NCBI GenBank assembly: GCA_013288745.1
Contig: JABDBG010000002.1
Span: forward strand, 1 to 64,000
DNA length: 64,000 nucleotides
DNA from: Bacteroidota bacterium
Lineage (GTDB): Bacteria > Bacteroidota > Bacteroidia > Chitinophagales > Chitinophagaceae
Direction of reading: 5' to 3'
How positions within the stretch are numbered: the first letter of the stretch is position 1; each line of letters opens with the position of its first letter. The notes beneath the pieces are model-generated. The model worked only from the letters and a program-made list of their open reading frames with translations, did no database searches and was not told where the DNA came from. Positions 6,462 to 41,263 of this stretch are shown here, one piece after another. The translations under genes and the position numbers were made by a program.

Positions 6462-6505
6462 AAGTGTATATAATTATTGAAATAAAGTAATAAAGAGATT
6501 AATAT

Positions 6506-7360
6506 TTATGTAGTTATTATTTTTTTTAATTTTTCGGTATTTCCCCAGAAGTTCATAGGTTCAAAATTATTATATTGATAATAACCTAAATTCAATTTTA
6601 TCGTTTTATTTATTTTAGCCAAATAATCAATAACAAATTGTTTTACAGTTATTGGTTGTCCGCTACAACAATTAATTATTCCATTTATTTTCTGTTGCAG
6701 AGAAATTGCAACGATATAGTCGGCAACTGTTTCTACAGGTAAAAAATCTCTTATTTGTTCGCCGCCACTCATATTAAAAGTTTCGGCATTCTGCTCAATT
6801 GCTTTATCGAGCTGCGAAGTTAAGGAATTTGGGTTTTGATGCTTCCCAAACATATAAAATAGCCTGACCCATTTCATATTTAGTAAAAATTCAGTTCTTA
6901 CACTTTCTATAAATATCCGCAATTCGTTTTTGGCTATCGCATAAGCATTACTGGGGCTACATTCCATCTCCTCATTTAATTCACCTTCCTGCATCCCGTA
7001 CTCAAAGCAAGTACCAGTTATAGTAATATCTTTTAGTCCGTTTTTGATGATATTTTTCAGGAAAGATTGATGTCTGGGTAAGTTTTCGGTTAAATGAAAA
7101 TCGCTTTTATAATTTGGCAAGCCTTCCCAGGCTAAATGAATTAAAATATCGGGTGCGTTAAAGAATTGAAAATAATCAGTAGCATCGTCGAAGTTTTTAA
7201 GATCCAATTCAATATACTTTACTTTATCAAACCAGCTATAGGTTTTTGCTTTTTGAATATTCGATGACGTAGCAATAACCGACAACTTCTGTTTCAACAA
7301 CTCTTCAATCACATAATTCCCAATAAAACCCGTGGCGCCAGTTACTAATACCTTTTTCAT
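6506..7360 (-). CDS. NAD(P)-dependent epimerase/reductase (SDR)
   Basis: 'VLVTGATGFIGNYVIEELL', 'PSNAYAIAKNELRIF'. Confidence 0.85.
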   Translation of the reverse strand: MKKVLVTGATGFIGNYVIEELLKQKLSVIATSSNIQKAKTYSWFDKVKYIELDLKNFDDATDYFQFFNAPDILIHLAWEGLPNYKSDFHLTENLPRHQSFLKNIIKNGLKDITITGTCFEYGMQEGELNEEMECSPSNAYAIAKNELRIFIESVRTEFLLNMKWVRLFYMFGKHQNPNSLTSQLDKAIEQNAETFNMSGGEQIRDFLPVETVADYIVAISLQQKINGIINCCSGQPITVKQFVIDYLAKINKTIKLNLGYYQYNNFEPMNFWGNTEKLKKIITT

Positions 7361-8587: not shown

Positions 8588-8590
8588 AAA

Positions 8591-9136
8591 TTATACTCCT
8601 TTAAAATTATTATCGAGAAAAGGATGTTCCTCATCTCGTTTTGAAATATTTGATAGCGGCAATGGCCAGTTAATAGCAATCTTTGGATCATTATATCTTA
8701 TACCCGCTTCAACATTAGGTTGATAAAATTGAGAATGATGATAGATCAATTCGCAATCGTCACTCAGTGTTTGAAATCCATGTGCAAAGCCTTCCGGTAT
8801 ATACAACATTCGTTTATTCTCAGCCGATAATTCAACCCCGGCCCATTGTAAAAAGGTAGATGAATCTTTGCGTAAATCAATAATTACGTCAAAAATTTTA
8901 CCGGATATACATCGTACTAATTTTATTTCAGCAAAAGAAGCTCCTTGATAGTGCATTCCTCGTATCGTTCCTTTCTGTGCAGTGTAAGAATGATTTAACT
9001 GAACCCATTCCTTTGTGTGGCCAATTTTCTCAAACTCATGTTTGCAAAATGTTCTTGCAAACCAACCTCTTTCATCCTGAAACAGATCAAGGTCTATTAT
9101 AAAACTACCCTTTAAAACTGTTTCTGTAAATTTCAT
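8591..9136 (-). CDS. dTDP-4-dehydrorhamnose 3,5-epimerase family protein
   Basis: 'GSFIIDLDLFQDERGWFARTFC', 'GTIRGMHYQ', 'YIPEGFAHGFQTLSDD'. Confidence 0.92.
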   Translation of the reverse strand: MKFTETVLKGSFIIDLDLFQDERGWFARTFCKHEFEKIGHTKEWVQLNHSYTAQKGTIRGMHYQGASFAEIKLVRCISGKIFDVIIDLRKDSSTFLQWAGVELSAENKRMLYIPEGFAHGFQTLSDDCELIYHHSQFYQPNVEAGIRYNDPKIAINWPLPLSNISKRDEEHPFLDNNFKGV

Positions 9137-10218
9137 TTTGCCTGATATTGTTTAATCTGATCTAAAGTAAAATTAAACAAATCCATTTCATTTTTCTTAT
9201 ACCAGTTAATTGTCCATTCAATTGCCTGTTGACTGTTTAATTTGGGTTGCCAGTTCAATTCTTTTCCAGCTTTGGTAATATCTAGTTTTAACAGTCCGGC
9301 TTCATGTACCTGATCGGCAGTAGAAATATCTTTCCAGTGACCTGCTCCCCAATTATTTATAGCGATATCGACCAATTTATTTACAGGTAAATGATCGCTG
9401 GGAAGCGGGCCAAAATTATATGCAGGCGAAACTTTTGAATAATCTGTATATGCACAGATGGCTAATTGTAAATAGCCGCTTAATGGCTCTAAAACATGCT
9501 GCCATGGCCTAATCGAATTAGGGTTTCTTACTTCAATGAGCTCATTATTTTGCAAAGCTCTCACAATATCAGGAATAATCCTGTCTTTGCTCCAATCTCC
9601 GCCACCAATTACATTTCCTGCACGTGCGCTAATTATCGCTTTTTGATGTTGTTGGTATTGTTTTATATTGAAGAAAGAATTTCTAAAAGAGTTTGTCACT
9701 ATTTCTGCCGCAGCTTTGCTGGCACTATAAGGGTCGTAGCCACCGAGTATATCTTCTTCTCTGTAATGGTAATCAATTTCCTTATTATCGTAAACTTTGT
9801 CGGTTGTTATTACAATGACTGTACACTTTTTATTAAGGTGAATAACGGATTCTAATAGATTTGCTGTTCCAATTGCGTTTACATCGAATGTTTCGGAAGG
9901 GATCTCGTAGGAACGTCTAACTAAAGCCTGAGCTGCTAAGTGAAAAATAACATCGGGTTGAAAATTATTGATCTCTTTTTTAAGCCTTTCTTTATCTCTA
10001 ATATCGGCAAAAATATTCTCGAATTGCAGGTTTGATTTTGTGATATTAAATAGGGAAAATTCGTTTTCCGGGGGTAAAGAATAACCTTTAATTTCTGCAC
10101 CCAATATATGAAGCCAATTAATCAACCATGCTCCTTTAAATCCTGTATGTCCGGTAACAAAAATCTTTTTATTGCGATAAAAATTATCAAGTGTTTTGTT
10201 TAATTCCACTTTTTCCAT
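9133..10218 (-). CDS. rfbG: CDP-glucose 4,6-dehydratase
   Basis: 'KKIFVTGHTGFKGAWL', 'GGYDPYSASKAAAEI', 'ARAGNVIGGGDWSKDRIIPDIVRA'; adjacent to cytidylyltransferase. Confidence 0.95.
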   Translation of the reverse strand: MEKVELNKTLDNFYRNKKIFVTGHTGFKGAWLINWLHILGAEIKGYSLPPENEFSLFNITKSNLQFENIFADIRDKERLKKEINNFQPDVIFHLAAQALVRRSYEIPSETFDVNAIGTANLLESVIHLNKKCTVIVITTDKVYDNKEIDYHYREEDILGGYDPYSASKAAAEIVTNSFRNSFFNIKQYQQHQKAIISARAGNVIGGGDWSKDRIIPDIVRALQNNELIEVRNPNSIRPWQHVLEPLSGYLQLAICAYTDYSKVSPAYNFGPLPSDHLPVNKLVDIAINNWGAGHWKDISTADQVHEAGLLKLDITKAGKELNWQPKLNSQQAIEWTINWYKKNEMDLFNFTLDQIKQYQAK

Positions 10219-10979
10219 TTTGCAGTATTAGTTTTCCAAAGTTCTTCCAACTCTAGTTTATCACGCAACGCATCCATACATTTCCAAAATCCATTGTGTT
10301 GAAAAGCCATAAGCTGCTTATCATTCGCAAGTTTTTCAAGTGGTTCATCTTCCCACATCATATTGCTCATATCACCTTGTAAATAATCAAATACTGCTGG
10401 CCTTAATACAAAAAAACCTCCGTTGATCCACTTTCCTTCATCTTTAGCTTTTTCCCTGAATGATACCACCTCACTATTACCTGCAAGATCCATTCCGCCA
10501 AACCTAGCTTCTAATTGTATAGCTGTTACTGTCGTAATTTTATTATGTGTTTTATGAAAGGCTACAAGATCCGCAATGTTCACATCGCAAACACCATCAC
10601 CATACGTAAGCATAAAATCTTCATTACCAATATACTTTTTTACCTGCTGCAAGCGCCCTGCAGTTTTTGTATTTAAACCAGTGTCTACTAAAGTAACTTT
10701 AAAATTATCTGATTTAGTTCCGAGTATTTCCATTTTATTATTAGCCAGGTCAATAGATATATCTGAATTATGCAAAAAATAATTCATAAAATATTCTTTA
10801 ATGACATACCCCTTATATCCTAAGCAAATAATAAATTCATTAAATCCATAATGACTATACATTTTCATAATATGCCAAAGAATAGGCTTACCTCCAATTT
10901 CAACCATAGGTTTAGGGCGAATGTCTGTCTCTTCGCTAATCCTTGTTCCTAAACCTCCAGCAAAAATTACAACTTTCAT
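10200..10979 (-). CDS. rfbF: glucose-1-phosphate cytidylyltransferase
   Basis: 'MKVVIFAGGLGTRISEETDIRPKPMVEIGGKPILWHIMK', 'FMLTYGDGVCDVNI'. Confidence 0.95.
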   Translation of the reverse strand: MKVVIFAGGLGTRISEETDIRPKPMVEIGGKPILWHIMKMYSHYGFNEFIICLGYKGYVIKEYFMNYFLHNSDISIDLANNKMEILGTKSDNFKVTLVDTGLNTKTAGRLQQVKKYIGNEDFMLTYGDGVCDVNIADLVAFHKTHNKITTVTAIQLEARFGGMDLAGNSEVVSFREKAKDEGKWINGGFFVLRPAVFDYLQGDMSNMMWEDEPLEKLANDKQLMAFQHNGFWKCMDALRDKLELEELWKTNTAKWKKWN

Positions 10980-11026
10980 ATAACAGGTGAATTAAGCATT
11001 CTAAGGAATAATATGCGCTTGAATGT

Positions 11027-12091
11027 TTATTTTTTATCGACAGTTATTAATTCTGTTTCCATCATTTCCTTTACTAACATTGGTAAATCATATTTTGGTT
11101 TCCAGCCCAGTTGTTTGTTTGCTTTAGACGGATCTACAATTAATAAATCTACTTCAGCAGGTCTAAAATATCGAGGATGTATACCAACTACCTGTTTACC
11201 AGTCGGCAATTGATATTTTGGATTATTACATTTTTTTACAAACGCCTTTTCGTCAACACCTGTTCCCGTAAATTCTAATTCAATTCCTGCTTCACTGAAA
11301 GACATTTTAACAAAATCTCTAACTGTAGTAGTAACTCCGGTAGCCAATACAAAATCTTCCGGCTTTTCCTGCTGCATCATTAACCACATACCTTCAACAT
11401 AATCTTTAGCATGCCCCCAATCGCGCTTAGCATCAAGATTTCCTAACAATAAAATATCTTCTTTACCGACGGCAATTTTAGCAACGGCAATAGTGATCTT
11501 TCTCGTTACAAATGTTTCGCCTCTAAGCGGACTTTCGTGGTTGAACAGAATACCGTTTACGGCATACATATCATAAGATTCCCTATAGTTTACAGTGATC
11601 CAGTATCCGTATAGTTTAGCAACACCATATGGAGAACGAGGATAGAAGGGCGTTGTTTCTTTTTGTGGTATCTCCTGTACCAAACCGTATAATTCGGAAG
11701 TAGAGGCCTGATAAAAACGTGTTTTCTTTTCCAGGCCCAAAATTCTTATCGCTTCTAAAATTCTCAATACGCCTATTCCATCTGAATTTGCAGTGTATTC
11801 AGGAGTTTCAAAACTAACCTGAACATGGCTTTGTGCTGCCAGGTTATATATTTCGTCGGGCTGTGTTTGTTGTATAATACGTAACAAGCTTGATGCATCT
11901 GTAAGATCGCCATAATGCAAATGAAAACGATCCGATAAACTTTTATCAAAAAACAAATGATCTATTCTGTCTGTATTGATCAAAGAACTACGGCGTTTAA
12001 TACCGTGAACATTATATCCTTTGCTTAATAAGAGTTCTGCTAAATAAGCTCCATCCTGACCTGTGATTCCTGTAATTAAAGCTACTTTCAT
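11027..12091 (-). CDS. gmd: GDP-mannose 4,6-dehydratase
   Basis: '[33 protein letters not shown]', '[19 protein letters not shown]'. Confidence 0.96.
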
Positions 12092-12193
12092 TATCTATTT
12101 TAAATGTGATCAAAAATAGGGATATATTTTAAGTTTATTCCCTAATAAGACCTATAAATGTTGATTATTTTCTCTTAGCCAAAACAATATATT

Positions 12194-13315
12194 TTATTTA
12201 ACAGATAAGGCATTTGCTGCTTTCTTTGCTATGGCTTCCCAATAAAAATGTTCAAAATATATTGTAGGGATATGATTTTCAATGTCTGTCATAATAATGG
12301 CTGCAGCAAATAATTTCCAGTTATCGTTGGCTACAATTTGCATTTTATTGCCGGTGATACTAAGAGGCACGCCAATAGCTCCATTTGAAGTTGTTACCAC
12401 ATTCATATCATAACCCAATGATTCTACCAATTTAGTTTTAATGCCGCCGCCATCAATAACAGGATTAATAAAAATATCTGCGCCTTTAAAATAGGGGATA
12501 ATATCATCTACAAAACCGGCATAAATTATATTTTCATTTGTATAATCAATTAGTTTATTATAACCAGGCGGCAGACCTTTTCCACAGATTATTATTTTAT
12601 ATTTAAAATTGTGATCATTTAAAAGAACGGGATTAATTTTTTTGATGATAATATCAATGGCATCCTGATTTGGTTTGTAATCTAATGTACCATTAAAAAG
12701 CAACAATTTATCCTGACGATCAATCGCATATTTTGAATACAAAAAATCCTTCGCTATTTTTTTTTCTTCCTGGAGAGGGGCTTTGTTTAACTCGAACCCA
12801 TAAGTTATAGTGGTGCATTTTTGCTTCGCAAGATTAAAATGCCTGATAGCGTAATCTTTATCCTCGTCACTGATGAAAAAACAAATATCGGCACTTTTAT
12901 ATGTCAGCTTTTCATACAACGCCAGTATTTTCCACCACCATTTTCCTGTACTTTTAAAGCGAACATTTTCAATATTATGAGAATGGACTATTAATGTGAT
13001 TTTACATAAATGCTTTAACAATATGCCTAACCATCCGTAGTAAGGATGTTCTAATATTACGTGTGTTATCTCTCTTTCTTTAATTATTTTCTTTAGCGTA
13101 AAAAAATAAAAAAGATTTATATACCTGATTTTACTATTGGACAAAACATTCAATAGCTCATATCCGTCAGACAATTTCGGATCATTGCTTTGTACTGTAA
13201 CACAGGTAAGTTTTACTTCCCTACAAAAAAAACGGTTAAAAAATGCAATACCTTTTTGTCCGCCCATTTTTGCAGGAAGAAACTGATAGGATACAAGGCT
13301 TAGAACATTTTTCAT
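12194..13315 (-). CDS. glycosyltransferase (GT4-like)
   Basis: 'LLFNGTLDYKPNQDAIDII', 'IPYFKGADIFINPVIDGGGIKTKLVESLGYDMNVVTTSNGAIG'. Confidence 0.85.
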   Translation of the reverse strand: MKNVLSLVSYQFLPAKMGGQKGIAFFNRFFCREVKLTCVTVQSNDPKLSDGYELLNVLSNSKIRYINLFYFFTLKKIIKEREITHVILEHPYYGWLGILLKHLCKITLIVHSHNIENVRFKSTGKWWWKILALYEKLTYKSADICFFISDEDKDYAIRHFNLAKQKCTTITYGFELNKAPLQEEKKIAKDFLYSKYAIDRQDKLLLFNGTLDYKPNQDAIDIIIKKINPVLLNDHNFKYKIIICGKGLPPGYNKLIDYTNENIIYAGFVDDIIPYFKGADIFINPVIDGGGIKTKLVESLGYDMNVVTTSNGAIGVPLSITGNKMQIVANDNWKLFAAAIIMTDIENHIPTIYFEHFYWEAIAKKAANALSVK

Positions 13316-13334
13316 ATGTTAACTGATTGGAAAA

Positions 13335-15893
13335 TTAGGATACATCTTTTTGTTCCTTTGCCCTGTTTTTCCAAATCATAAAAGCACTGAGTAGTAAAAA
13401 GCCCCACGCAAATAAGCTAGCGAATTTTGCAAATGATTCACCCAATGCAACGGATTTAGGCTCAAATTTAAACTCGATCAGATGTTTACCGGCAGGAATA
13501 GCCAATCCTCGTAAAGCATAATCTACTTTGCAGTAATCAACTTGTTTTCCATCTATATAAGCATCCCAACCTTTGCTGTAATACATTTCGCTAAACACAG
13601 CAAACTGGTTTGCAGATGAATTAAAATCATAAGTGATATCGTCATTCAAATTTTTTATCAACCTGATGTAAGACGAGGAATCATATACAGGTTCAAAAGG
13701 AACTTTACTTTTAAAGCTTTGATCAATCACAACAGTATTTGCAGGGTCGATACTATCTAAGGCATTCATTTCTTCATTAGCATTATTAACATACCTGATC
13801 TCTTTAATCAACCAACAATTACCCAAGGCATATTTATTAGCTACCGCAATCGTTTGCTTAGGATTATTCTGATCTGGTATTATAACATATTTCATGTTCA
13901 ACATATTCAACACCTGAAAACTATCTTTCGCATTTGGGTTAGCGGCCCAGGCCTGAATATTTTTAAATAGCTCTTTGTTTTTTAAATCCTCAAATACTCC
14001 CAGTTTAGCCGGGCTATAGCCACCAATTGCATTGTGTTTGTAAGAAGCTATAGCATCATTAAATGTATTACCAACAGATACCTGAAAACCACTATTTCCA
14101 TCGCCAAAAGCAAGGTTCAATACCCTGAAAAACGAAGGGTCCCTTTTGATTTGAATATCTGCATTATAATCTTTATACACAGTTTCATAATCGGTAGGGT
14201 CTATAAAATTATCATCATTTAAATAACGTTTGCCAACACCAACCAGATCAATTGCGGTTAACAAAATTAATGCGGCATACACAATACCCGGTTTTATAAT
14301 TTGTTTTGTATAGAGAAAGATAACGGCCACGCCAGCTAACAGAAAACCAAGCGTTCTCCACATATCTTCTAAATAAAGAGCTTGCCTGTCTTTAACGATA
14401 GCACCTATATAAGCATTTACAAACTCACTATTATTTTGTAATGCATCGCTCAGGTTCTTTCTTAGTTCATTTGTTTCTTCATTTTTAAAGTCTGCTAAAA
14501 AGTAAAATAAAACTAACCCCGCGGCTATTGACCCTGCGATGATCAGGCTTTTTTTACCGATATCAGTTAATCTTTCTTTATCAGTTATTCTCACTAATTC
14601 ATTTACAAAGATTACCCCCAGCAATGGTACCGTTAATTGAGGAATCACCAAAGCCATTGCAGGTGTTCTGAATTTATTATAAAAAGGTAAATGATCAAAA
14701 AGAAAATAGTTCAGCGATTCGAAGTTTTTACCGAATGCCATTAAAACGCCTATAAGCGTGGCCGCTAATATCCACCATTTATGTTCGCTTTTTGATAATA
14801 CCAATCCTAATACAAATAACAGACAAATAATAGCACCAAAATAAACAGGACCGGATGTTGAAGGTTGGTCGCCCCAATATGCACTGGCAGCCTGGTATAG
14901 TTGCTGCGTTAATTGTTGTGGTATGTTTGGGGAATTTTGAAGTACATCTGCTACTTTCGAATCATCACCTAAACTTGTTGAAGATCCGCCACCAAATGCA
15001 TTAGGAACTATAAAAGTAAGGGCCTCAGCTTTGCCATAACTCCATTGAAATGCATACTCCTTATCTAAACCGCTTTTTGTTGTTTTATTGCCTGTACCTG
15101 TGCTGGTAAGAGCGCTTCCGCCACGCATACTTTCAGTAGCATATTCGTAAGTAGCGAAGTAGCCCATAGAGCATATCAATAAAGCAATTAAAGGCAGGAA
15201 GCTGCTTAGCAAAAGTGAAATAGCCAGGTGTTTATACGCTTTTTGTTTTACTGTATTTATAATAAGATATATACCAAGACAAAAAGCAATTATAATAGTG
15301 TAGTAAAGAATTTGCTGATGACTTTGCTCAATAAAACAAGTAGAGAAAATTAATAATAGAGAACCGCCCCACCAATATTTTTTATTAAAGATGAGTAATA
15401 TAGCTCCTAATATTGCAGGTGCATACGCCATTGACAATAACTTGGTATTATGCCCAACTGCTATTAATATAGGGTCATAACTACAATAACCGTAAGCTAT
15501 TGCCCCTAAAATAGAGAGCCAGGGATTTACGCCTATAACGATGCACAAAAAATAAAAACAAGCACAGGCAATAAATAGGAAATACACGGGAGCCGGTAAT
15601 CCTAATGTGAATATATCTGCAAAAGAAGATATTGATATGAAATAGGATTTAGGTGCCATTGCGATTTGGTAAGCAGGCATTCCACAAAACATACTATTTG
15701 TCCAAAGAGGATAATAACCATTTTTAGCATTAAACTCTATAGACTGCTCTGCCATGGCCTTCCATTGTTGTGTATCATGCTGCTCAACTACTTTCCCGTT
15801 TAACACCGGAGCTGTAAATACTATAGATAATAACAGAAATGTAAAAAAGGCAACGATATGAGGAACAAGGATCTTGAAATTGAAGTTTTTCAT
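13335..15893 (-). CDS. YfhO family multi-pass membrane protein (putative glycosyltransferase accessory)
   Basis: Many TM segments, C-terminal 'VFSEMYYSKGWDAYIDGK'; start chosen at MKNFNFKILVPHIV (15893) rather than the track start 15944. Confidence 0.85.
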   Translation of the reverse strand: MKNFNFKILVPHIVAFFTFLLLSIVFTAPVLNGKVVEQHDTQQWKAMAEQSIEFNAKNGYYPLWTNSMFCGMPAYQIAMAPKSYFISISSFADIFTLGLPAPVYFLFIACACFYFLCIVIGVNPWLSILGAIAYGYCSYDPILIAVGHNTKLLSMAYAPAILGAILLIFNKKYWWGGSLLLIFSTCFIEQSHQQILYYTIIIAFCLGIYLIINTVKQKAYKHLAISLLLSSFLPLIALLICSMGYFATYEYATESMRGGSALTSTGTGNKTTKSGLDKEYAFQWSYGKAEALTFIVPNAFGGGSSTSLGDDSKVADVLQNSPNIPQQLTQQLYQAASAYWGDQPSTSGPVYFGAIICLLFVLGLVLSKSEHKWWILAATLIGVLMAFGKNFESLNYFLFDHLPFYNKFRTPAMALVIPQLTVPLLGVIFVNELVRITDKERLTDIGKKSLIIAGSIAAGLVLFYFLADFKNEETNELRKNLSDALQNNSEFVNAYIGAIVKDRQALYLEDMWRTLGFLLAGVAVIFLYTKQIIKPGIVYAALILLTAIDLVGVGKRYLNDDNFIDPTDYETVYKDYNADIQIKRDPSFFRVLNLAFGDGNSGFQVSVGNTFNDAIASYKHNAIGGYSPAKLGVFEDLKNKELFKNIQAWAANPNAKDSFQVLNMLNMKYVIIPDQNNPKQTIAVANKYALGNCWLIKEIRYVNNANEEMNALDSIDPANTVVIDQSFKSKVPFEPVYDSSSYIRLIKNLNDDITYDFNSSANQFAVFSEMYYSKGWDAYIDGKQVDYCKVDYALRGLAIPAGKHLIEFKFEPKSVALGESFAKFASLFAWGFLLLSAFMIWKNRAKEQKDVS

Positions 15894-16085
15894 GCAGATT
15901 TTTTTCTTTAGGCAGCAAATTAAAAGTTTTATACCGAAAAGCACAATTGTTCAAAAAATACTTGTGCAACATTTATCGTTTACCATAAAATATAACAAAA
16001 TGTAAAAAGTTAATCACGTTTGTGGAAAATTTTAACTTCTTTCTTTTACTTGATTTTCCGAAATTTATATCTAACGAACTAACAG

Positions 16086-16961
16086 TTGACAGAAAATAAA
16101 GAAATATCGGCACTTTTTCATCTGATCGATGATCCTGACGTAGACGTTTACAATACGGTTAGTGATAAGATCATTTCTTTTGGAAAAGGCATTATACCAA
16201 ACCTGGAGCACCTTTGGGAAAATACCACCAATGAAGAGATCCAGGAAAGAATTGAATCGTTGATACATAAGCTTCATTTTCGCGACCTTACTGAAGATTT
16301 TATGCACTGGAAGAATGGTAGCTGCGAATTATTGCAAGGTGCCTTGTTGACAGCTCAATATCATTATCCTGATCTGCAAAGTATGCAGGCACTTCAGGAA
16401 ATTGAAAAATTACGCCGTAATGTATGGCTTGAACTAAACAGTTACCTTACTCCGTTAGAACAAGTAAGTGTTTTAACCAGTATTTTATATAATTATTACA
16501 AATTATCCGGAACTGAGATCGCTTATGATCATCCAGAAAATTTCCTGATCAATAAGACACTTGAAACAAAGAAGGGGAATGCTATCAGCAATGGCATAGT
16601 TTATCTCATCCTTTGCGAATTACTCGATATTCCTGTACGGGCAATCAATATTCCCAGGCAGTTTATCCTCGCTTATTTCGATCCTCAATACGAATTCATG
16701 AACCCGATAGGACATTCATCTGAGAAAATAAGTTTCTACATAGATCCTTTGAACGGACAAATATATTCTCATAAAGATGTTGAAAATTATTTCAAGCGTA
16801 TCTCTGTACCACCGACTACTTCGTATTTTAAAAAGATGAACAACAAACGCATTATTCAGTATTTGCTGGAAGAGTTGAGCAAATGCTTTGACAATGATCG
16901 TAACAGGTACAAGATGGAAGAGCTATTGCAATTGGTAAAGCTTCTTGATGATGATATCTGA
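16086..16961 (+). CDS. SirB1/transglutaminase-like family protein
   Basis: 'NFLINKTLETKKGNAISNGIVYLILCELLDIPVRAINIPRQFILAYF'; 5' end could lie upstream or use a non-ATG start. Confidence 0.7.
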   Translation: MTENKEISALFHLIDDPDVDVYNTVSDKIISFGKGIIPNLEHLWENTTNEEIQERIESLIHKLHFRDLTEDFMHWKNGSCELLQGALLTAQYHYPDLQSMQALQEIEKLRRNVWLELNSYLTPLEQVSVLTSILYNYYKLSGTEIAYDHPENFLINKTLETKKGNAISNGIVYLILCELLDIPVRAINIPRQFILAYFDPQYEFMNPIGHSSEKISFYIDPLNGQIYSHKDVENYFKRISVPPTTSYFKKMNNKRIIQYLLEELSKCFDNDRNRYKMEELLQLVKLLDDDI

Positions 16962-17016
16962 TAAGTAATATTACAAGACCAGTTGGAAATTTTCCATATA
17001 CAATTCAATATTAAAT

Positions 17017-17051
17017 AAAAAAGGTAGTCTGCAAAACAGACTACCTTTTTT
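17017..17051. terminator. bidirectional intrinsic terminator
   Basis: AAAAAAGGTAGTCT-gcaaaac-AGACTACCTTTTTT, 14-bp perfect stem between convergent genes. Confidence 0.9.
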
Positions 17052-17071
17052 ATTATAGAGATTATTATTAA

Positions 17072-18016
17072 TTAAAATAAACCGCCTTTTCTTAAAGCAA
17101 CTGTACCGCCACCGATTTTAAATCCATTTTCATAGATCTCTAATTTGTAAGCGCCTACTTCGAAGTTAGTTCCTTTCCAATCAGTATTAACTGTCTGGCG
17201 CTGGCCCTGAACGTAGTTAACTTCCACTTTTTGAGTATACACTTTTTCAGCGCTATCTCTTGGAATGAATGTACCTGAACCTTGAGACTCAACAGATAAA
17301 GGCTTTCCGTTAGGAGCAGTGATGCAAATGAACAATTGTTTTGCACCTGAAGCAACAATACGGTTTTCATCCAAATCAAAAGAAACATGTAGTTTGTTTA
17401 CTTTCTTAGCTTTTGTTGTTTGTTTTTCTTTACCACTGTTTTTAACATCAACACCAGTTACAGAGAAGTTAGATGCATGTAAAGTTGATCCAACATCAAT
17501 AGTACTGTCATTTGATTTTTTAGTAGAATCAAATGTTTGTTTAATTGAATCTCTTTGATTGATTACAGTAGCTTTTTCCTGAGTTAATTGAGCATTTTCA
17601 GCTTTTAATTCAGCTATTTCTTTTTCGTATCCGTCAATTTGAGCATCAAAAGATTTGATCTTACGTTTTAATTCTGCTAATTGATGCGCATCTAAATTTG
17701 TTTTTGACAACAATTTTTTGATCTGCTCTTCTTTATCAGCTAATTCTTTGTCTTTAGCAGTGATTTGATTGTCTTTGTCGATATCAGTTGTTTTCAAACT
17801 GTCGTAGCGGCTTGTTTCTGCAGTAAATAAAGTTTGCAAAGAATCTTTTTCAGTTGTAACTGTAGTAATTTGTCCAGCCTGTTGTGCAATCACTTCGCCG
17901 GTTTTATTCTTATCATAAATAATGTAGCCCCAGGTTGCTACTAATAAAAGGATCAACAAAATCGTAATCCATTTTTTTGAACTTGACTGTTCTTGCGGAG
18001 AATTGTCTACTGACAT
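17072..18016 (-). CDS. membrane-anchored coiled-coil protein, unknown function
   Basis: N-terminal TM 'KWITILLILLLVATWGYIIYD', long coiled coil, beta-rich C-terminus. Confidence 0.75.
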   Translation of the reverse strand: MSVDNSPQEQSSSKKWITILLILLLVATWGYIIYDKNKTGEVIAQQAGQITTVTTEKDSLQTLFTAETSRYDSLKTTDIDKDNQITAKDKELADKEEQIKKLLSKTNLDAHQLAELKRKIKSFDAQIDGYEKEIAELKAENAQLTQEKATVINQRDSIKQTFDSTKKSNDSTIDVGSTLHASNFSVTGVDVKNSGKEKQTTKAKKVNKLHVSFDLDENRIVASGAKQLFICITAPNGKPLSVESQGSGTFIPRDSAEKVYTQKVEVNYVQGQRQTVNTDWKGTNFEVGAYKLEIYENGFKIGGGTVALRKGGLF

Positions 18017-18285
18017 AGTTTTAAAAATTTTGGTAATTGAATGTTTTTTTCGAGAATAGCGTAAATCGCGTTTACAATGTTACAAAAATATTATCTATAC
18101 ATAACAATAATATCAGATAAAATATCTAAAATTTTGTTTAATCTTAAATAAATCATCAATACCAGCGCTTGTTACAATAAAAGTAGAAATTAAACGTTTA
18201 CCGCGGTTGCCATTCATCAAATAAACCAAAACAGACTCGGATACTATTTTTGAATCCTCACTTGTATTGGTTTATTTTTGCTGTA

Positions 18286-20127
18286 ATGAAACATCTCGCT
18301 TCACTCAATCGCTTTTTTTGGAACTATCGCTGGCGGCTACTTTTAGGAATTTTATTTGTTGTACTGACGAATTATTTCAGGATACTTTCTCCACAGCTTA
18401 CAGGGTATGTGGTAAATATTGTTGTCAATAAAGCCGATCATAGTACTGTTGCTACAACACACAATAATCAGAACGATATTATTGTTCAGGCGATCATCAA
18501 TCATCTGGAAGCAAAATCATTTGGTGAAAAAGTTTTATGGAGTGGCATCACCCTATTAATATTAGCTGTTATCAGTGGTTTTTTTATGTTTCTAATGCGG
18601 CAGACGATCATCGTAATGAGCCGGTTAATAGAATATGACCAGAAAAACCAGGTATTTACACACTACCAGCAACTGGATACTAATTTTTACAAAACGCATA
18701 GTACCGGCGATCTGATGAACCGCATCTCCGAAGATATAAGCAGGGTAAGAATGTACACTGGCCCTGCAATTATGTATGTTGTAAACCTTGCTGTAACTAT
18801 CGGGTTCAGTATTTACTTTATGGTAAAAGCCAGTCCCAGGTTAACGATTGTGGCCTTATCGCCTTTGCCCATCTTAGCTTTTACGATCTATTTTGTTAAT
18901 ACAATTATCCATAAAAAAAGTGAACGTATCCAGGCATTATTAAGTGATCTCACGACTAATGCACAAGAATCGTACAGTGGAATAAGGGTTATTAAGTCTT
19001 TCGTTCAGGAAAGAACCATGTTTGGCTTTTTTACAAAAAATAGTGAAGAATACAGAAAGAACGCATTAGGATTGGCTAAGACAGAAGCCATCTATTTCCC
19101 AAGCATTGCTTTATTGATCGGGTTAAGCACACTGATAACAATTATGGTGGGCGGATTGGATTATGTGCACGACCCGATACATAACAAAGTTGGTACCATT
19201 GCTGAATTTGTTTTATACATTCAAATGCTCACCTTTCCTGTAAGTGCCATTGGATGGACAGCCAGTATGATACAAAGAGCTGCTGCCTCCCAAAAACGTA
19301 TCAACGAATTTTTGCAAACCAGGCCAACTATCCAAAATGCTATCGAAAAAATTAAACCGCCGTTAACAGGCAATATCAGTTTTACCAACGTCGATTTTAC
19401 TTATCCGCATACGGGAATTAACGCTGTTAAAAATTTCTCCTTACAAGTTGCACCGGGAGAAAAAATAGCGATCGTAGGAAGAACCGGTTCAGGAAAATCT
19501 ACTATCGCACAATTGCTGTTACGGATGTATGATCCGCAGAAAGGAATGATCATGTATGACGGCGCACCATTAACCAAGATCGATATTGAATACCTGCGAT
19601 CGCAAATAAGTTATGTACCACAAGATGTCTTCTTATTTAGTGAAACCGTAAGCAATAATATCCGTTTTGGATATGATGATGCGACGCAGGAACAAATAGT
19701 AAAAGCAGCTAAACAAGCCAGTGTACACAATGAGATTGAGCATTTTGCACATCAATACGAAACCCTGATAGGAGAGCGTGGGGTGACATTAAGTGGGGGA
19801 CAAAAACAACGAATATCTATTGCCAGAGCCTTGATAAAAGAAGCTAAAATTGTGATCTTTGATGATTGTTTAAGCGCTGTAGATGTTAAAACCGAGAAGG
19901 AAATATTGAATGGATTGAATGAATACCTGGATAAGAAAACAGCTATAATCATTACCCACCGCATATTTTCATTGATCACGTTCGATAAGATTATAGTGAT
20001 CGATGAAGGAAAGATCGTAGAAGAAGGCACACACGACCAACTTTTACAAAAAAACGGTTACTACGCAGATATGTATGCCCGCCAGCAAAACCAGGAAGAT
20101 ACCAACGATGATATTTCCCGAAATTAG
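18286..20127 (+). CDS. ABC transporter, fused permease/ATP-binding (exporter type)
   Basis: 'IVGRTGSGKSTIAQLLLRMYDPQKG', 'LSGGQKQRISIARALIKEAKIVIFDDCLSAVD'; start may be 18250. Confidence 0.95.
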   Translation: MKHLASLNRFFWNYRWRLLLGILFVVLTNYFRILSPQLTGYVVNIVVNKADHSTVATTHNNQNDIIVQAIINHLEAKSFGEKVLWSGITLLILAVISGFFMFLMRQTIIVMSRLIEYDQKNQVFTHYQQLDTNFYKTHSTGDLMNRISEDISRVRMYTGPAIMYVVNLAVTIGFSIYFMVKASPRLTIVALSPLPILAFTIYFVNTIIHKKSERIQALLSDLTTNAQESYSGIRVIKSFVQERTMFGFFTKNSEEYRKNALGLAKTEAIYFPSIALLIGLSTLITIMVGGLDYVHDPIHNKVGTIAEFVLYIQMLTFPVSAIGWTASMIQRAAASQKRINEFLQTRPTIQNAIEKIKPPLTGNISFTNVDFTYPHTGINAVKNFSLQVAPGEKIAIVGRTGSGKSTIAQLLLRMYDPQKGMIMYDGAPLTKIDIEYLRSQISYVPQDVFLFSETVSNNIRFGYDDATQEQIVKAAKQASVHNEIEHFAHQYETLIGERGVTLSGGQKQRISIARALIKEAKIVIFDDCLSAVDVKTEKEILNGLNEYLDKKTAIIITHRIFSLITFDKIIVIDEGKIVEEGTHDQLLQKNGYYADMYARQQNQEDTNDDISRN

Positions 20128-29183: not shown

Positions 29184-31073
29184 ATGGCAGAAAAAGAAGT
29201 ATCGATTTATAATGAAGACTCCATAAAGAGCTTAGATTGGAAAGAGCATATCCGCCTGCGCCCGGGAATGTACATTGGTAAACTCGGAGATGGTAGCAGC
29301 GCCGATGATGGTGTGTACGTTTTGATAAAAGAAGTGATCGATAACTGTATCGATGAACACACCATGGGTTTTGGTAAACAGGTAGATGTAACGATCGAAG
29401 GCAAGACAATTACGGTGCGCGATTTTGGTCGTGGTATTCCTTTGGGGAAGGTTGTAGATGTGGTGAGTAAGATAAATACCGGTGCCAAATACGATAGCAA
29501 AGCCTTCCAGAAAAGTGTGGGATTGAATGGTGTGGGTACAAAAGCTGTAAACGCATTGAGCAATAATTTTACCGTGACCGCTTACCGTGATGGAAAAGAA
29601 AAGACGGCCGAATTTGCAAAAGGTGTTTTAATAAAAGAACATAAAGAAGTGGCGACAAAAGAACCCAACGGGACTTTTGTAACTTTTATCCCTGATGATA
29701 CCATCTTTAAAAACTTCCATTTTGTACAGGAATATCTAGACAGCCAGTTTTGGAATTATTGTTACCTGAATGCAGGTTTGATCATGAACCTGAATGGCAA
29801 AAAATATGTAAGTAAAAATGGTTTGCTTGATCTTTTACAACGCAAGACAAATGAAGATGAGATCCGTTACCCGATCATTCATTTAAAAGGTGAGGATATT
29901 GAAGTAGCGCTAACGCATGAAAATGCGTATGGTGAAGAATATTACAGCTTTGTAAACGGACAGTTCACCACACAAGGCGGTACGCATTTAGCAGCATTCA
30001 GAGAAGGCTATGTAAAAACGATCCGTGAATTTTTCAAGAAAGATTATGATGCGGCCGATATCAGGGGCAGCATCTGCGCAGCAATAAGTGTGCGTGTGCA
30101 GGAACCGGTTTTTGAAAGTCAGACGAAAACAAAGTTAGGTTCATCGAATGTATATGAAGGCGGTCCTTCGATGAGGAATTTTATCGGTGACTTTTTAATG
30201 AAGGAGCTCGATAACTATTTACATCGCAATACCGCAACTGCAGAAGCATTAAAAAAGCGTATTGAACAAAACGAAAGAGAACGTAAAGAATTAGCCGGCA
30301 TTAAAAAGCTCGCAAATGAAAGAGCGAAAAAAGCAAATCTTCATAACAAAAAACTAAGGGATTGCAAGTTTCATTACAACGATGAGGCAACGGGGAAAGA
30401 CAAAGACAGCATATTAGAAAAACAAAAAGAGAGCACCATCTTCATTACCGAAGGGGATAGTGCGAGTGGTAGTATTACCAAAGCAAGAAATGTTAATACC
30501 CAGGCTGTATTCAGTTTACGCGGTAAACCATTGAACTGTTTTGGTCTGACGAAAAAAGTAGTGTATGAAAACGAAGAGTTCAATTTATTACAACATGCGT
30601 TGAACATCGAAGAAAGCTACGAAGACCTTCGTTACAACAACATCGTATTTGCAACCGATGCTGATGTGGATGGTATGCATATCCGTTTGTTATTGATGAC
30701 GTTCTTTTTGCAATTCTTTCCTGATGTGGTAAAGAATGGTCACGTCTATATTTTAGAAACACCTTTATTCCGCGTAAGAAATAAACAGGAAACTATTTAT
30801 TGCTATGATGAAACGGAAAAGCAGGCCGCTATGAAAAAGCTAGGCAGCAAACCCGAAATAACAAGGTTTAAAGGATTGGGAGAGATCAGTCCGGAAGAAT
30901 TTGCACGCTTCATTAACACTGACATGAAATTGCAACCGGTGATGTTATTACCTGAAACACATATTCAACAATTGTTGGAATATTATATGGGCAAGAACAC
31001 ACCAAGCAGACAAGATTTTATTATTGATAATCTAAAGATCGAAGTTGATCTTGTAAACGAAGCGGAGGCATAA
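29184..31073 (+). CDS. parE: DNA topoisomerase IV subunit B
   Basis: '[33 protein letters not shown]', '[16 protein letters not shown]', '[12 protein letters not shown]'. Confidence 0.95.
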
Positions 31074-33052: not shown

Positions 33053-33100
33053 TTGAATATTGAATGTTCAATTTCAATGTATCAATGCTCAATGTTCAAG
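33053..33100. repeat. iterated-word repeat upstream of four-helix-bundle gene
   Basis: TTGAATATTGAATGTTCAATTTCAATGTATCAATGCTCAATGTTCAAG. Confidence 0.8.
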
Positions 33101-33115
33101 TTTTAAATACATCCT

Positions 33116-33487
33116 ATGCAAACTAAAAAATATGATTTGGAAGATCGGCTGGTTGACTTCACCTGCAGAATGATCGATGTTGTTGAAGCTTTGCCAAACA
33201 CTCGCGCAGGAAATTATATCGCTGGTCAATTAGTACGCTCTTGTCATTCACCGACATTTAATTATGGTGAAGTACAAGCAGCAGAATCCCGAAATGATTT
33301 CATTCATAAAATGGGGATTGTGCTAAAAGAATTGAAAGAATGTAGAACAGCGCTGAAAGTGATAATGAAGAAAATAATGATAAAACCCGCGGGAAAGCTG
33401 GATGGGATTTATAAGGAGACCGAAGAGCTAATTGCAATTGTGGCTAAGAGTATTGATACAGCTTTTAAGAATAAAGAGAATAAATAA
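33116..33487 (+). CDS. four helix bundle protein (23S rRNA intervening-sequence / S23 family)
   Basis: 'DLEDRLVDFTCRMIDVVEALPNTRAGNYIAGQLVRSCHSPTFNYGEVQAAESRNDFIHKMGIVLKELKECR'. Confidence 0.92.
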   Translation: MQTKKYDLEDRLVDFTCRMIDVVEALPNTRAGNYIAGQLVRSCHSPTFNYGEVQAAESRNDFIHKMGIVLKELKECRTALKVIMKKIMIKPAGKLDGIYKETEELIAIVAKSIDTAFKNKENK

Positions 33488-33587
33488 ATGTTCAATGCTC
33501 AATTTTCAATTCTCAATGCTCAACTGATGAGCCTAAAAATTTGAACAAATTGAAAATTGAACATTGACACATTGAGCATTGAACATT
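33487..33587. repeat. large inverted repeat between four-helix-bundle gene and parC
   Basis: AATGTTCAATGCTCAAT (33487-33503) / ATTGAGCATTGAACATT (33571-33587), nested AATTTTCAATT (33501-33511) / AATTGAAAATT (33548-33558). Confidence 0.9.
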
Positions 33588-36285: not shown

Positions 36286-37728
36286 ATGATCCTAACACAA
36301 ATTACTATTAAAAATTTTCGCTGTATTGATTCATTATTATTTAATATAGAACCAATTGATGGAGGAAATACATATACTCTTCTAGGTATTAATGAATCAG
36401 GTAAAAGTAGTTTTCTCAAAGCTATTTCACTAATCGACAATGGAGAAGCTGATTTTCCACAAGATTTTTTCGATGATCAAAAACCTATTGAGTTATGCTT
36501 AAAGTATAAAATGTCTGATACAAATATTAAAGATTTTAAAATAGATCTCTTTGATATATATAAATTTGATAAATCAATTATTCAAGAAATTGATATTGAA
36601 GAAATTAAAGTAACAGTTCTTTGTCCTCCTGCCTTAAATTCAGCCAAACAAGAAATAGTAGACGCTAAATTTAAAAAAAGTATTTTTTCAAATTATACTC
36701 TCATTGATGAAATTGCTGTAAAAAAAGAAAAAAATGTACTCCCACAAGATGATCTTGATTTAAGATCTTACTTTAACAAAAATCTTCAAAATTATTTTTG
36801 GGACTTATCGCATAAAATAACATTTTGGAAATCATCTCCCAAATATTTATTGCTTGATGAAATTGATTTAGAGATATTTTCTAATTCTCCAAAGAGTATA
36901 TCTTTACCATTGTACAATTGCTTTGAACTTTCAGGTATAAAGGATATTAAAAAGCAAGTAGCGAAATTAACAAGTCCAGTTGCCCGCCAAAACTTAAGTG
37001 ACTTGTTAAGCGAAAGTGTTACAAAACATATTAATAAAGTATGGCCGGAACATCTAATCTCAATCAAATTTAATATCAACAACTATAAATTAACTTTCTT
37101 AGTCGAAGATAATGATGTAAAATTTCAATCAAAAACTATTAATCAAAGAAGTGATGGATTTAAGCAATTTATTTCTTTTTTATTAACGTTGTCGGCAGAA
37201 AATTTAAATGATAAATTATCGAATGCAATATTACTTCTTGATGAACCAGAAACTCATTTACATCCTAGTGCACAACTAAATTTAAAAGACGAGTTAATTA
37301 AGATATCAAAAAATAGTAACAATAATATTGTTTTTTTTGCTACCCATTCTAATTATATGATCGATAAAGATCAGATTGACAGGTGCTATAAAGTAATCAA
37401 GAAAAAAAATCACACAACTATTTTTGAAAAAATAGAGAGGACTCATAGCTCTTATGCAGAAGTTAATTATGAAGTTTTTGGGGTATTAACAACTGATTAC
37501 CATAATGAACTGTATGGGTTTATTGAAGATGACGATAAATCCAAATTAAATGCGTTACCGAAAATTAAAAAATGGTATAATGAAAAAAAGAAACAAGAGG
37601 AAGACGTTTCTTTATGTACTTACGTCAGGCATTCAATTCATCATCCAGAAAATACGTCAAACAAAAAATTTACAGATGCAGAACTTAAAAGTTCAATAAA
37701 AACTCTTAGAAATTTTAAATATCCATAA
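36286..37728 (+). CDS. ABC/SMC-type AAA ATPase (OLD/RecF-like), candidate defence protein
   Basis: 'TIKNFRCIDSLLF', Walker A 'GINESGKSSFLKA', Walker B 'AILLLDEPETHLHPSAQ', 'ATHSNYMID'; C-terminal 'YVRHSIHHPEN'; no TOPRIM motif recognised. Confidence 0.88.
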   Translation: MILTQITIKNFRCIDSLLFNIEPIDGGNTYTLLGINESGKSSFLKAISLIDNGEADFPQDFFDDQKPIELCLKYKMSDTNIKDFKIDLFDIYKFDKSIIQEIDIEEIKVTVLCPPALNSAKQEIVDAKFKKSIFSNYTLIDEIAVKKEKNVLPQDDLDLRSYFNKNLQNYFWDLSHKITFWKSSPKYLLLDEIDLEIFSNSPKSISLPLYNCFELSGIKDIKKQVAKLTSPVARQNLSDLLSESVTKHINKVWPEHLISIKFNINNYKLTFLVEDNDVKFQSKTINQRSDGFKQFISFLLTLSAENLNDKLSNAILLLDEPETHLHPSAQLNLKDELIKISKNSNNNIVFFATHSNYMIDKDQIDRCYKVIKKKNHTTIFEKIERTHSSYAEVNYEVFGVLTTDYHNELYGFIEDDDKSKLNALPKIKKWYNEKKKQEEDVSLCTYVRHSIHHPENTSNKKFTDAELKSSIKTLRNFKYP

Positions 37729-37784
37729 GGCTATTTAATTACTATATAAAAGTTTAATAAATATTTTATAATTAAAACTTTCAA

Positions 37785-38522
37785 ATGATACGAAAAAAAA
37801 CCTTAAGTGATATTAGAGATGTATTGGATAGCCATGCACGATTTACAGTTACGGATTTTTCGATAGAACAAAAAGGAAATAAAGCATTGTTAATAAAATA
37901 TAATTACGATGATGCATTTTTCTTTGACGTTGAAATACCTAATGAAACGTCATCAATACCAAGTGAGAATACTTTTTCAAGACCGCAAGACGATTATAAA
38001 TTTAGAGCTAAAATATCTCCTGGCAAGATTTCTACGATAGAAAATTTGGATTTTTATAGTGAATATATTTTTCATCAAAAGATTTCATTTTGGCTTGATT
38101 GCTTATGGGAAGAACTATTAGAAATCCCAGTTCAGAGACAATTTAAAGAACAAGAAAAAATAATTGAAGAGATAAAAGAAAAATTAAAAGACGTTCCTGA
38201 TGAATTTTTCAGCTATGAAGATGGTAATGAATTAAAAATAAAAATTGATAAGTTAGAAGCTAAATTCAACCAAAAGTTTGAGGCTGAAATTAAAGATAAA
38301 GAGAAGTTGCAAAAGAAAATAAATGATCTTCATAAAGAATTTGAAACGCTCAAGTCAACTATTTTTTCTGTTAAGAAGAAAAGTTGGTTTACATCTTTTG
38401 CCACTAAAACCTTCGTTTGGTTTACAAAAGAAGAAAATAGAAAGTTTTTAAAAGATGCAAAAGATTATATACAACCATTATTACCTGATAATATTAAAAA
38501 TCTTTTACCTCCAAGTCTGTAA
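37785..38522 (+). CDS. hypothetical coiled-coil protein, partner of the upstream ATPase
   Basis: Same strand, 56-nt gap; Lys/Glu coiled coil followed by 'SWFTSFATKTFVWFTKEENRKFL'; no family recognised. Confidence 0.7.
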   Translation: MIRKKTLSDIRDVLDSHARFTVTDFSIEQKGNKALLIKYNYDDAFFFDVEIPNETSSIPSENTFSRPQDDYKFRAKISPGKISTIENLDFYSEYIFHQKISFWLDCLWEELLEIPVQRQFKEQEKIIEEIKEKLKDVPDEFFSYEDGNELKIKIDKLEAKFNQKFEAEIKDKEKLQKKINDLHKEFETLKSTIFSVKKKSWFTSFATKTFVWFTKEENRKFLKDAKDYIQPLLPDNIKNLLPPSL

Positions 38523-38918: not shown

Positions 38919-38947
38919 AAAAAAGGCTGCATAATAGCAGCCTTTAA
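38919..38947 (-). terminator. intrinsic terminator (minus strand)
   Basis: AAAAAGGCTGC-ataata-GCAGCCTTT; T-run when read on minus strand. Confidence 0.75.
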
Positions 38948-39122
38948 ATAAAGTCCTTTACATCAACTTCTAACTTTTCGGCAATCCGTTTTAAGGTAAT
39001 AGTAATGGCGATGTACGACCGTTCTCTATTTTGTTTAACCCCGAATAGTCAAGTTTGCATTCTTTAGCAAATTGCCTTAATACAATCCCTTTGCCTCTCC
39101 GAATTTCTCGGATTCTTTTACC

Positions 39123-39166
39123 CAACTGGCGCAGATATGCGGTGTTGATTTTGTGCGTGGCGTATC
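39123..39166 (+). repeat. REP-like hairpin, left copy 1
   Basis: CAACTGGCGCAGATATGCGGTGTTGATTTTGTGCGTGGCGTATC. Confidence 0.85.
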
Positions 39167-39168
39167 CC

Positions 39169-39216
39169 CAACTAGCGCAGATATGCGGCATTGGTATTGT
39201 GCGTGGCGTATCTGTG
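39169..39216 (+). repeat. REP-like hairpin, left copy 2
   Basis: CAACTAGCGCAGATATGCGGCATTGGTATTGTGCGTGGCGTATCTGTGC; stem CGCAGATATGC / GCGTATCTGTG with wobble pairs. Confidence 0.85.
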
Positions 39217-39258
39217 CTAAGTATGTAATTCTGTGCCAAGTATATTGTACATTTATTT

Positions 39259-39810
39259 ATGAGTAAAAAGTACAAATTCCGAGATAACGATAAATTATAT
39301 TTCGTAACGTTTACTATTGTTCATTGGATAGATTTATTTATTAGAAATGAATATAAAGAAATAGTTCTTGATGCCATAAGATTTTGTCAAAAGAATAAAG
39401 ATCTTGAAGTGTATGGATGGTGTATAATGTCAAGTCATTTACACTTAATTATTGGTACACGTGGTAATGCAATGAGTAATATTGTGCGGGATCTTAAGCG
39501 CCACAGTTCAGAAGAATTGCATAAAGCTATAAAAGTAAATAATAAAGAAAGCCGGAAAGAATGGATGATTTGGATGATGGAAAGAGCAGGGAAGATCAAT
39601 AATGTAAATTTTCAATTATGGCAACCAGAAAGTCATCCAATAGAATTAACCAATAACCATATTGCGCATCAGAAACTAAATTATATACATAACAATCCTA
39701 TCGAGGCAGGCTTCATAACAAAAGCAGAGGAATGGCAATACAGCAGTGCAATAGATTACAACGGAGGTAAAGGATTACTGGAAATTATACAATTAGAAAC
39801 ATTAATGTAA
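39259..39810 (+). mobile_element. REP-associated tyrosine transposase (RAYT, Y1/HUH)
   Basis: HUH motif 'GWCIMSSHLHLIIG', catalytic Tyr context 'LNYIHNNPIEAGFI', bracketed by inverted REP-like copies. Confidence 0.93.
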
Positions 39811-39814
39811 ACAA

Positions 39815-39862
39815 GCACAGATACGCCACGCACTATATCAAAGCTGCATATCTGCGCCAGTT
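39815..39862 (-). repeat. REP-like hairpin, right copy (inverted relative to left copies)
   Basis: GCACAGATACGCCACGCACTATATCAAAGCTGCATATCTGCGCCAGTT. Confidence 0.88.
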
Positions 39863-39870
39863 ATGAGTAG

Positions 39871-39915
39871 CAAAGCAATAAACATTTAGTATATTTAGTT
39901 TACAAAATCCTACTT
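39871..39915 (+). repeat. 45-bp dispersed repeat, copy 1
   Basis: CAAAGCAATAAACATTTAGTATATTTAGTTTACAAAATCCTACTT. Confidence 0.9.
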
Positions 39916-39917
39916 AA

Positions 39918-40364
39918 ATGGATAAAAAAATAAAGATATCGTCAAGCCAAATCTTAGTGAAAGTAATGTGCTTCATTGCTATAGTAATTTTTTCTAAATT
40001 AATAATAGATAACAATAATAATGATGACTTTGATTTTAAAACGTTACTTGAATATAAAATATTCTTAGCAGTTTTTATTGCTGCCTTAATTTATTTTTTT
40101 ACAAGACCTGCAATCTATTATGATAATACTAATATTTATATTAAGAAAGTAACTCAAAGTCTAATAATTATTCCTCTAAAAAAAGTCCGATCAATTTTTA
40201 AAAGCCCATTTGTAAGCAAAGGAACTACTATGTTTACTATTGAATATATTAATGATGAAAATGAAAAAGATTCAGTAAAGTTTAATGGCCGTTATTTTTC
40301 AAGTAAATTATCCAACTTCATGGCCATTTTAAAAGAAACAAATCCTCATATTGAAATCGTATAG
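39918..40364 (+). CDS. hypothetical membrane protein, bacterial-PH-like
   Basis: Two TM segments then 'YYDNTNIYIKKVTQSLIIIPLKKVRSI'. Confidence 0.65.
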   Translation: MDKKIKISSSQILVKVMCFIAIVIFSKLIIDNNNNDDFDFKTLLEYKIFLAVFIAALIYFFTRPAIYYDNTNIYIKKVTQSLIIIPLKKVRSIFKSPFVSKGTTMFTIEYINDENEKDSVKFNGRYFSSKLSNFMAILKETNPHIEIV

Positions 40365-40407
40365 GTAGAATTAGTAATAACCTTACTAACTTAACTGGCG
40401 CAGCGAA

Positions 40408-40455
40408 GCGAAGCAATAAACACCCAGTATATTCAGTTTACGAAATCCTCCACTT
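40408..40455 (+). repeat. 45-bp dispersed repeat, copy 2
   Basis: GCGAAGCAATAAACACCCAGTATATTCAGTTTACGAAATCCTCCACTT, preceded by 'aactggcgca'. Confidence 0.9.
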
Positions 40456-40864
40456 AATTATTTAAAAGCTTTGCCTTTTGCGCATCAAACTCTTGTTGCG
40501 TAAGTACGCCGCCATCAAGCAATCCTTTGAGTTTTTGTATTTCATCCGCTATGCTTGTCTGGCTACCAGACGATTGACTGGTTGATGCTTTCTTTCCTGC
40601 TTCAATTCCTTCTTTTATTTGTTTTACTTCTGCTTTGGTAAAGCCGTTGGCTGACATTTGAGTTCCGCCTGCAAAAATAGTTATTGATGAAAAACCGATC
40701 AATGGCGTTTCTATCTCAACAGAAGCAATATGATTAAAATCAAAATGCTTTGTCTCACCACTAAACAGCCCCGGAATTTTTATGGTGATCCCCGTTTCTT
40801 CCAGGTATATTTCTGAAGGGAAAATTTTATTGTCGCTTGAAAGTCTTGATGCTGTGAATTTCAT
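40454..40864 (-). CDS. SHOCT-domain protein
   Basis: C-terminal 'EIQKLKGLLDGGVLTQQEFDAQKAKLL'; start at MKFTASRL (40864). Confidence 0.85.
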   Translation of the reverse strand: MKFTASRLSSDNKIFPSEIYLEETGITIKIPGLFSGETKHFDFNHIASVEIETPLIGFSSITIFAGGTQMSANGFTKAEVKQIKEGIEAGKKASTSQSSGSQTSIADEIQKLKGLLDGGVLTQQEFDAQKAKLLNN

Positions 40865-40994
40865 ATTGTAAGGTTTTAATTTATGGTGATTGACTGCTGC
40901 CTTTTTAGACAGGCAACTTGTATACCAAAAGTAGTTGTAATCCCGCAAAGGCAATATTAAAGTATTAAGCACTGGAAAACCTACCTCTTGCGTG

Positions 40995-41036
40995 GCAAAA
41001 CAATAACATTTAGTATATTTAGTTTACAAAATCTCA
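40995..41036 (+). repeat. 45-bp dispersed repeat, copy 3
   Basis: CAAAACAATAACATTTAGTATATTTAGTTTACAAAATCTCAT, preceded by 'ttgcgtggc'. Confidence 0.88.
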
Positions 41037-41044
41037 TGCCGCAT

Positions 41045-41263
41045 ATGTCATTTCAAGCATATATAGATAATATCAAAACAAAGACAGGCAAAAGCCCTGA
41101 TGACTTCAAAAAACTGGCAGAAAAGAAAGGCTTTCTCAAAGCCGGCCAACTGGTAAAAAATGTAAAGGCAACTGAAATTACAAATTGGCTAAAAGAAGAA
41201 TTTGAATTAGGTCACGGGCATGCGATGGCAATTTATGCAACATTCAAAGGTAGAAAAGATTAA
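41045..41263 (+). CDS. DUF4287-domain protein
   Basis: 'MSFQAYIDNIKTKTGKSPDDFKKLAEKKGF...WLKEEFELGHGHAMAIYATFKG'. Confidence 0.88.
   Translation: MSFQAYIDNIKTKTGKSPDDFKKLAEKKGFLKAGQLVKNVKATEITNWLKEEFELGHGHAMAIYATFKGRKD

Follow-up and report, generated by a model that had tools for sequence, protein, structure and literature searches.

How did a sequence of about 50 bp come to lie three times, in diverged copies of one and the same orientation, inside 1.2 kb of a bacterial genome, and what does the REP-type transposase unit beside it have to do with its duplication? An earlier note on the window, as we call the whole stretch of 64,000 nucleotides analyzed here, had described three same-oriented copies of a 45-bp module, and these proved to be real. 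A repeat search recovered them at 39869-39911, 40407-40449 (86%) and 40993-41035 (77% without gaps), at intervals of 538 and 586 bp, and a sequence model of 57 positions (R1) placed them on the plus strand at 39863..39915 (copy 1, 57.9 bits), 40401..40454 (copy 2, 56.3 bits) and 40989..41039 (copy 3, 53.7 bits), scores that come from a model built from the same three copies, while the best non-module match in the window reached 10.2 bits. A 36-nt string from the module matched exactly at 39875-39910 only, and the 22-nt core of the module was found three times against an expectation of 0.01. The stretch of about 50 bp common to the aligned copies is TGNGTAGCAAAGCAATAAACATTTAGTATATTTAGTTTACAAAATCCTAC; in the core of the alignment, copies 1 and 3 differ by one substitution and a 1-nt deletion, and copy 2 is distinguished from copy 1 by transitions, one of which falls inside a TATATTTA box.

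The copies had further been said to separate three single small genes. This is correct for the genes themselves, which encode a PH-like protein (148 aa, 39918..40364, plus strand; no Pfam or NCBIfam match), a SHOCT-domain protein (136 aa, 40454..40864; Pfam SHOCT) and a DUF4287 protein (72 aa, 41045..41263, plus strand; Pfam DUF4287, 1.4e-24), but the SHOCT gene is on the minus strand and copy 2 therefore sits between two convergent gene ends. Copy 1 ends 2 bp upstream of the start codon of the PH-like gene and copy 3 ends 5 bp upstream of that of the DUF4287 gene, each occupying the start region of its gene. Copy 2 extends to the SHOCT stop codon, and thus no annotated sense gene lies downstream of it; the SHOCT gene has an upstream TACTTTTG box of its own, 61 nt before the ATG. 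The -7 element of the primary sigma promoter in Bacteroidota is given as TAHHTTTG, the G at -5 being nearly invariant in Flavobacterium johnsoniae (PMC6847099), and upstream of the genes in the window TAnnTTTG was enriched (10 versus 0 in reversed controls), whereas TAnnTTTA was not (8 versus 9). The box in the module reads TATATTTA in copy 1 (39890-39897) and in copy 3 (41014-41021), at a distance of 20-23 nt from the ATG in both, and is altered to TATATTCA in copy 2; the box does not have the G at -5 of the Flavobacterium johnsoniae consensus (PMC6847099). The suggestion that the module supplies a promoter agrees with the position of copies 1 and 3, although their box is not of the TAnnTTTG type, and does not suit copy 2. 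In summary, the position of copies 1 and 3 and the box changes in copy 2 favor a role as start region, and promoter activity of copies 1 and 3 is plausible from their position. The same observations could be explained by a selected operator or promoter that co-regulates the PH-like and DUF4287 genes, the REPs being irrelevant: copies 1 and 3 are nearly identical and keep the distance from box to ATG, the geneless copy 2 has the altered box, and TAnnTTTG is enriched in the window. However, the lack of enrichment of TAnnTTTA and of further copies in the assembly speaks against such an operator, which would also leave the other REP flanks described below unaccounted for, and we regard it as distinctly unlikely.

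Neither the pattern nor the model found the module elsewhere in the assembly from which the window comes (next match, E 0.2), which comprises 1.96 Mb in 84 contigs and is 71.7% complete. Likewise, the exact 22-mer was absent from 85k GTDB genomes and viral contigs, sets that may lack entries very close to the genome of the window, and in 398 other genomes of the family five matches with two mismatches were obtained at a control level of four, which is about chance. Among 93 genomes of the genus, the best match (L096 in genome G417; E 4.9e-4 per genome) lies 35 bp upstream of an ATG, with a gene for an IS200-type transposase about 0.9 kb off; it is borderline and was not counted. Compared across its own genome and relatives, the 45-mer gave no sign of dispersal, its copies in the assembly being confined to this locus, and the reading as a dispersed element was rejected, with only three local copies and none, or a chance-level number, in relatives. 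Nor does the 45-mer qualify as a REP or REPIN itself, since it forms only weak folds in place of a hairpin and its three copies in the assembly are all local; Rfam yielded no relevant match, and the single-strand folds were unremarkable. The two flanks of a copy are able to base-pair with one another (on the best strand, background fractions of 0.055, 0.029 and 0.006), using different letters at each copy, which is suggestive with n = 3 sequences only. As a source of the module we also considered the topoisomerase subunit gene at 29184-31073, which contains a stretch similar to copy 2 (30481-30520), but the likeness concerns copy 2 alone (p 0.014 window-wide) and was taken as chance.

The locus as a whole is lineage-specific, since all 18 relatives fetched keep the two topoisomerase subunit genes in synteny but have none of the window's genes between 36 and 46 kb behind this pair. 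The DUF4287 gene is present in 10 of 93 genus genomes and stands, in several relatives, directly behind a DoxX-like gene and without the module, which is not the arrangement in the window. Behind the topoisomerase gene, the variable region also holds an AAA ATPase (AAA_15/AAA_21) and a coiled-coil protein (36286-38522), which resemble a defence-type pair, and at 33056-33523 a four-helix-bundle gene (TIGR02436) lies between direct repeats of a TTCAAT-rich sequence.

The unit to the left of copy 1 consists of a gene for a REP-associated tyrosine transposase (RAYT; 183 aa, 39259..39810, plus strand; NF047646, 96.5 bits at a cut-off of 80; Pfam Y1_Tnp), whose HLH (HUH-type) motif is intact, and of palindromic REPs in inverted arrangement on its two sides. 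According to a model built from the REPs of the same genome (R2), two of these lie on the plus strand to the left (39122..39166, 55.9 bits, E 1.7e-14; 39168..39222, 77.9 bits) and the third on the minus strand at the right end of the REP-RAYT-REP unit (39810..39864, 72.6 bits). The outer end of this third REP is at the same time the left breakpoint of copy 1, with the junction CGCCAGTTA / TGAGTAGC. A REP-like piece had been reported before each copy of the module. A full REP adjoins copy 1 only, the other two copies having REP fragments; at copy 2 a 12-nt REP tip, TAACTGGCGCAG (40392..40403, plus strand), is the perfect inverse of the tip of the third REP, but at copy 3 the 8-nt TGCGTGGC is not significant, given 515 REP 8-mer matches in the window, and can be aligned in register with the module's own sequence. 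On the right side of copy 3 an 11-nt REP-like match, ATGCCGCATAT (41036..41046, plus strand), overlaps the DUF4287 start codon and is possibly due to chance. An intact RAYT of the NF047646 family between inverted palindromic REPs corresponds to known REP/RAYT systems and REPINs, but the whole assembly, which is incomplete, contains only eight REPs in three clusters (contig C2 with the window, C56 and C57), whereas more than 100 per genome are usual (PMC2817692). A high copy number is usual but not strictly defining for these systems, and the unit beside copy 1 is a low-copy RAYT unit. RAYTs as a family are widespread and maintained by vertical inheritance, and what these transposases do for the host is unresolved (PMC8049555). 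To the left of the RAYT gene, a minus-strand helix-turn-helix (XRE-like) gene at 38933-39191 appears broken, and its 5' portion extends into the REP.

A link between module and REPs, which the earlier note had drawn for this locus, gained further support when the 60-nt flanks of the REP units were searched for direct copies nearby that scored 40 bits or more and compared with control intergenic windows, since the other two REP clusters likewise have short local copies abutting REPs. A copy was found at 4 of 8 REP flanks compared to 11 of 471 control windows (2.3%), giving P 1.9e-5 with and 2.4e-4 without the locus in the window; as the test was devised after the repeats in C56 and C57 had been noticed, these values represent a contrast with the background and not a blind prediction, and the sample consists of four REP units from one incomplete assembly. 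In all four units the duplication is one-sided, affecting exactly one flank, the other copy lies 0.5-2.1 kb away in direct orientation, and the homology stops at the REP end or a few bases off (GCTGGGAAG / tagcgcag, cgccagtg / GGAACTTG, ctgtacc / AAAATTTTAG and cgccagtta / TGAGTAGC). Three of the four copies carry gene-start regions, namely copy 1 of the module (61.7 bits to its local copy), a 124-bp unit in C56 and a 53-bp unit spanning an ATG in C57. In C56 the REP adjoins the 124-bp unit, which is itself another hairpin repeat and whose other copy is 0.96 kb away, and both copies are start regions of genes that are unrelated. In C57 the DNA directly behind one REP is a 53-nt copy of a gene start 2.1 kb off, including the ATG and the first codons, and behind a second REP it is a copy of the 3' portion of a gene at a distance of 1.4 kb; these copies may be what is left of a paralogous operon after partial deletion. 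The same contig has a gap of N (8229-8328), with an identical 95 bases on either side, which may be a scaffolding artefact.

The scars described above suggest that REP ends serve as breakpoints of small local duplications which are able to hand a gene start to a neighbour, and we judge this proposal to have an even chance of being correct. The end of a REP or of a REP-RAYT unit would act as the breakpoint, the break arising either through nicking by the RAYT or through replication stalling and template switching at the REP hairpin; a stretch of 45-140 bp from 0.5-2.1 kb away would then be copied beside the REP end, and an unrelated neighbouring gene would thereby gain the same start region and possibly a weak promoter. 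In the window, REP-anchored duplication would then have multiplied one gene-start region, the sequence immediately before a start codon, into three modules nearby and in direct orientation, a reading for and against which we see the balance as equal. Alternatively, the start region may have been reused without any contribution of REPs, through tandem duplication and loss of the redundant gene or through homology-assisted gene insertion, with the REP-RAYT unit inserted next to copy 1 later. It counts against the proposal that about 2% of the control intergenic windows likewise show a local copy, and that start regions are also duplicated without REPs: on contig C1 of the same genome (L160, 40001-60000) a 60-bp start region that includes a perfect TATTTTTG and ATG, found at 4033-4092 and 5232-5290, stands before each of two neighbouring genes that are unrelated, and there is no REP in the vicinity. 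REPs are thus at most one route to the duplication of start regions. The close likeness of copies 1 and 3 and the drift of copy 2, which has no gene behind it, also speak for reuse of this kind. However, a random later insertion would rarely hit the breakpoint of a duplicate, yet REP end and breakpoint coincide at 4 of 4 REP units. Had a REP inserted into an existing duplicate, homology would be expected to either side of it, but none of the units shows this. We consider the REP-free sequence of events rather unlikely. Common start regions of high score were enriched among neighbours, as a score of at least 50 was reached by 3 of 2240 neighbour pairs compared to 2 of 13080 random pairs, and the three such neighbour pairs among 784 genes in 0.89 Mb of the genome are those in C56, in C1 and in the window.

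To our knowledge, based on a limited literature check, a one-sided local duplication at REP ends has not been described. Promoter propagation, or mobile promoters, was reportedly the subject of Matus-Garcia et al. in 2012, and the likeness lies in near-identical start regions before unrelated genes, here copy 1 before the PH-like and copy 3 before the DUF4287 gene. Mobile promoters are dispersed, whereas no genome-wide dispersal was found in the assembly and the module is strictly local, with all its copies in direct orientation inside 1.2 kb. That RAYT/REP systems systematically generate one-sided duplications of 45-140 bp of nearby gene boundaries, and so pass on promoters or start regions, is a tentative and at present doubtful generalization. 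The interest of REP ends as breakpoints depends on such generalizing, which is a matter of direct computation on existing genomes: if reproducible, the gene-start duplication scar at REP ends would be a concrete product of RAYT activity and, if true, the mechanism would offer genes a way of gaining expression signals.

The layout of the locus had also been likened to a cassette array, which is too strong a term for three unrelated genes, one of them reversed, with no recombinase recognized and no attC-type site. Integron cassette arrays and CALINs (PMC9024848) likewise combine small genes with repeats between them in one orientation; in this genome, however, a different repeat is found at each locus. 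Reading by eye, we noticed no integron integrase among the ORFs of the window, and on inspection the module core, TAAAC...GTTTA, does not fit the attC R boxes (RYYYAAC...GTTRRRY); no recombinase-driven cassette array was evident at the locus. A remnant of a mobile gene-cassette array, in which the modules would be sites of recombination or promoters of cassettes, with the PH-like, SHOCT and DUF4287 genes as cargo, is nonetheless brought to mind by the only relative of the PH-like protein among 59 genus genomes (42% identity, genome G412); a scan of the remaining genome contigs gave nothing further, and there was no phage match. The G412 gene lies beside another RAYT-like gene and within an array in which direct repeats of about 160-230 bp stand between units of one or two genes, and a 47-nt module recurs before some of its genes. 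This repeat occurs in 6 of 93 genus genomes but not in the window's own genome; neither the repeat nor its 47-nt module had a match in the window or in sampled contigs of the same genome, and the SHOCT and DUF4287 homologue loci fetched were without it. Together with the reversed SHOCT gene and the lack of a recognizable integrase or attC R box at the locus, these findings speak against a cassette remnant, which we consider improbable, and the G412 array is a lead on where PH-like genes live and not evidence for an array in the window.

Such arrays were observed at L084 (contig C25 of G412, 5980-19001), in G452 (contig C34, about 203-222 kb), in G451 (contig C160) and in G423, with all repeats in one orientation. 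In arrays of the L084 type the 47-nt module is a dyad and no recombinase or attC boxes were identified; they are possibly an undescribed cassette system. On another contig of the window's own genome (L148, contig C9, 9106-10340), a gene for a 191-aa pentapeptide-repeat-like protein lies between direct repeats of roughly 250-330 bp, which contain the palindrome AAGTCC...GGACTT.
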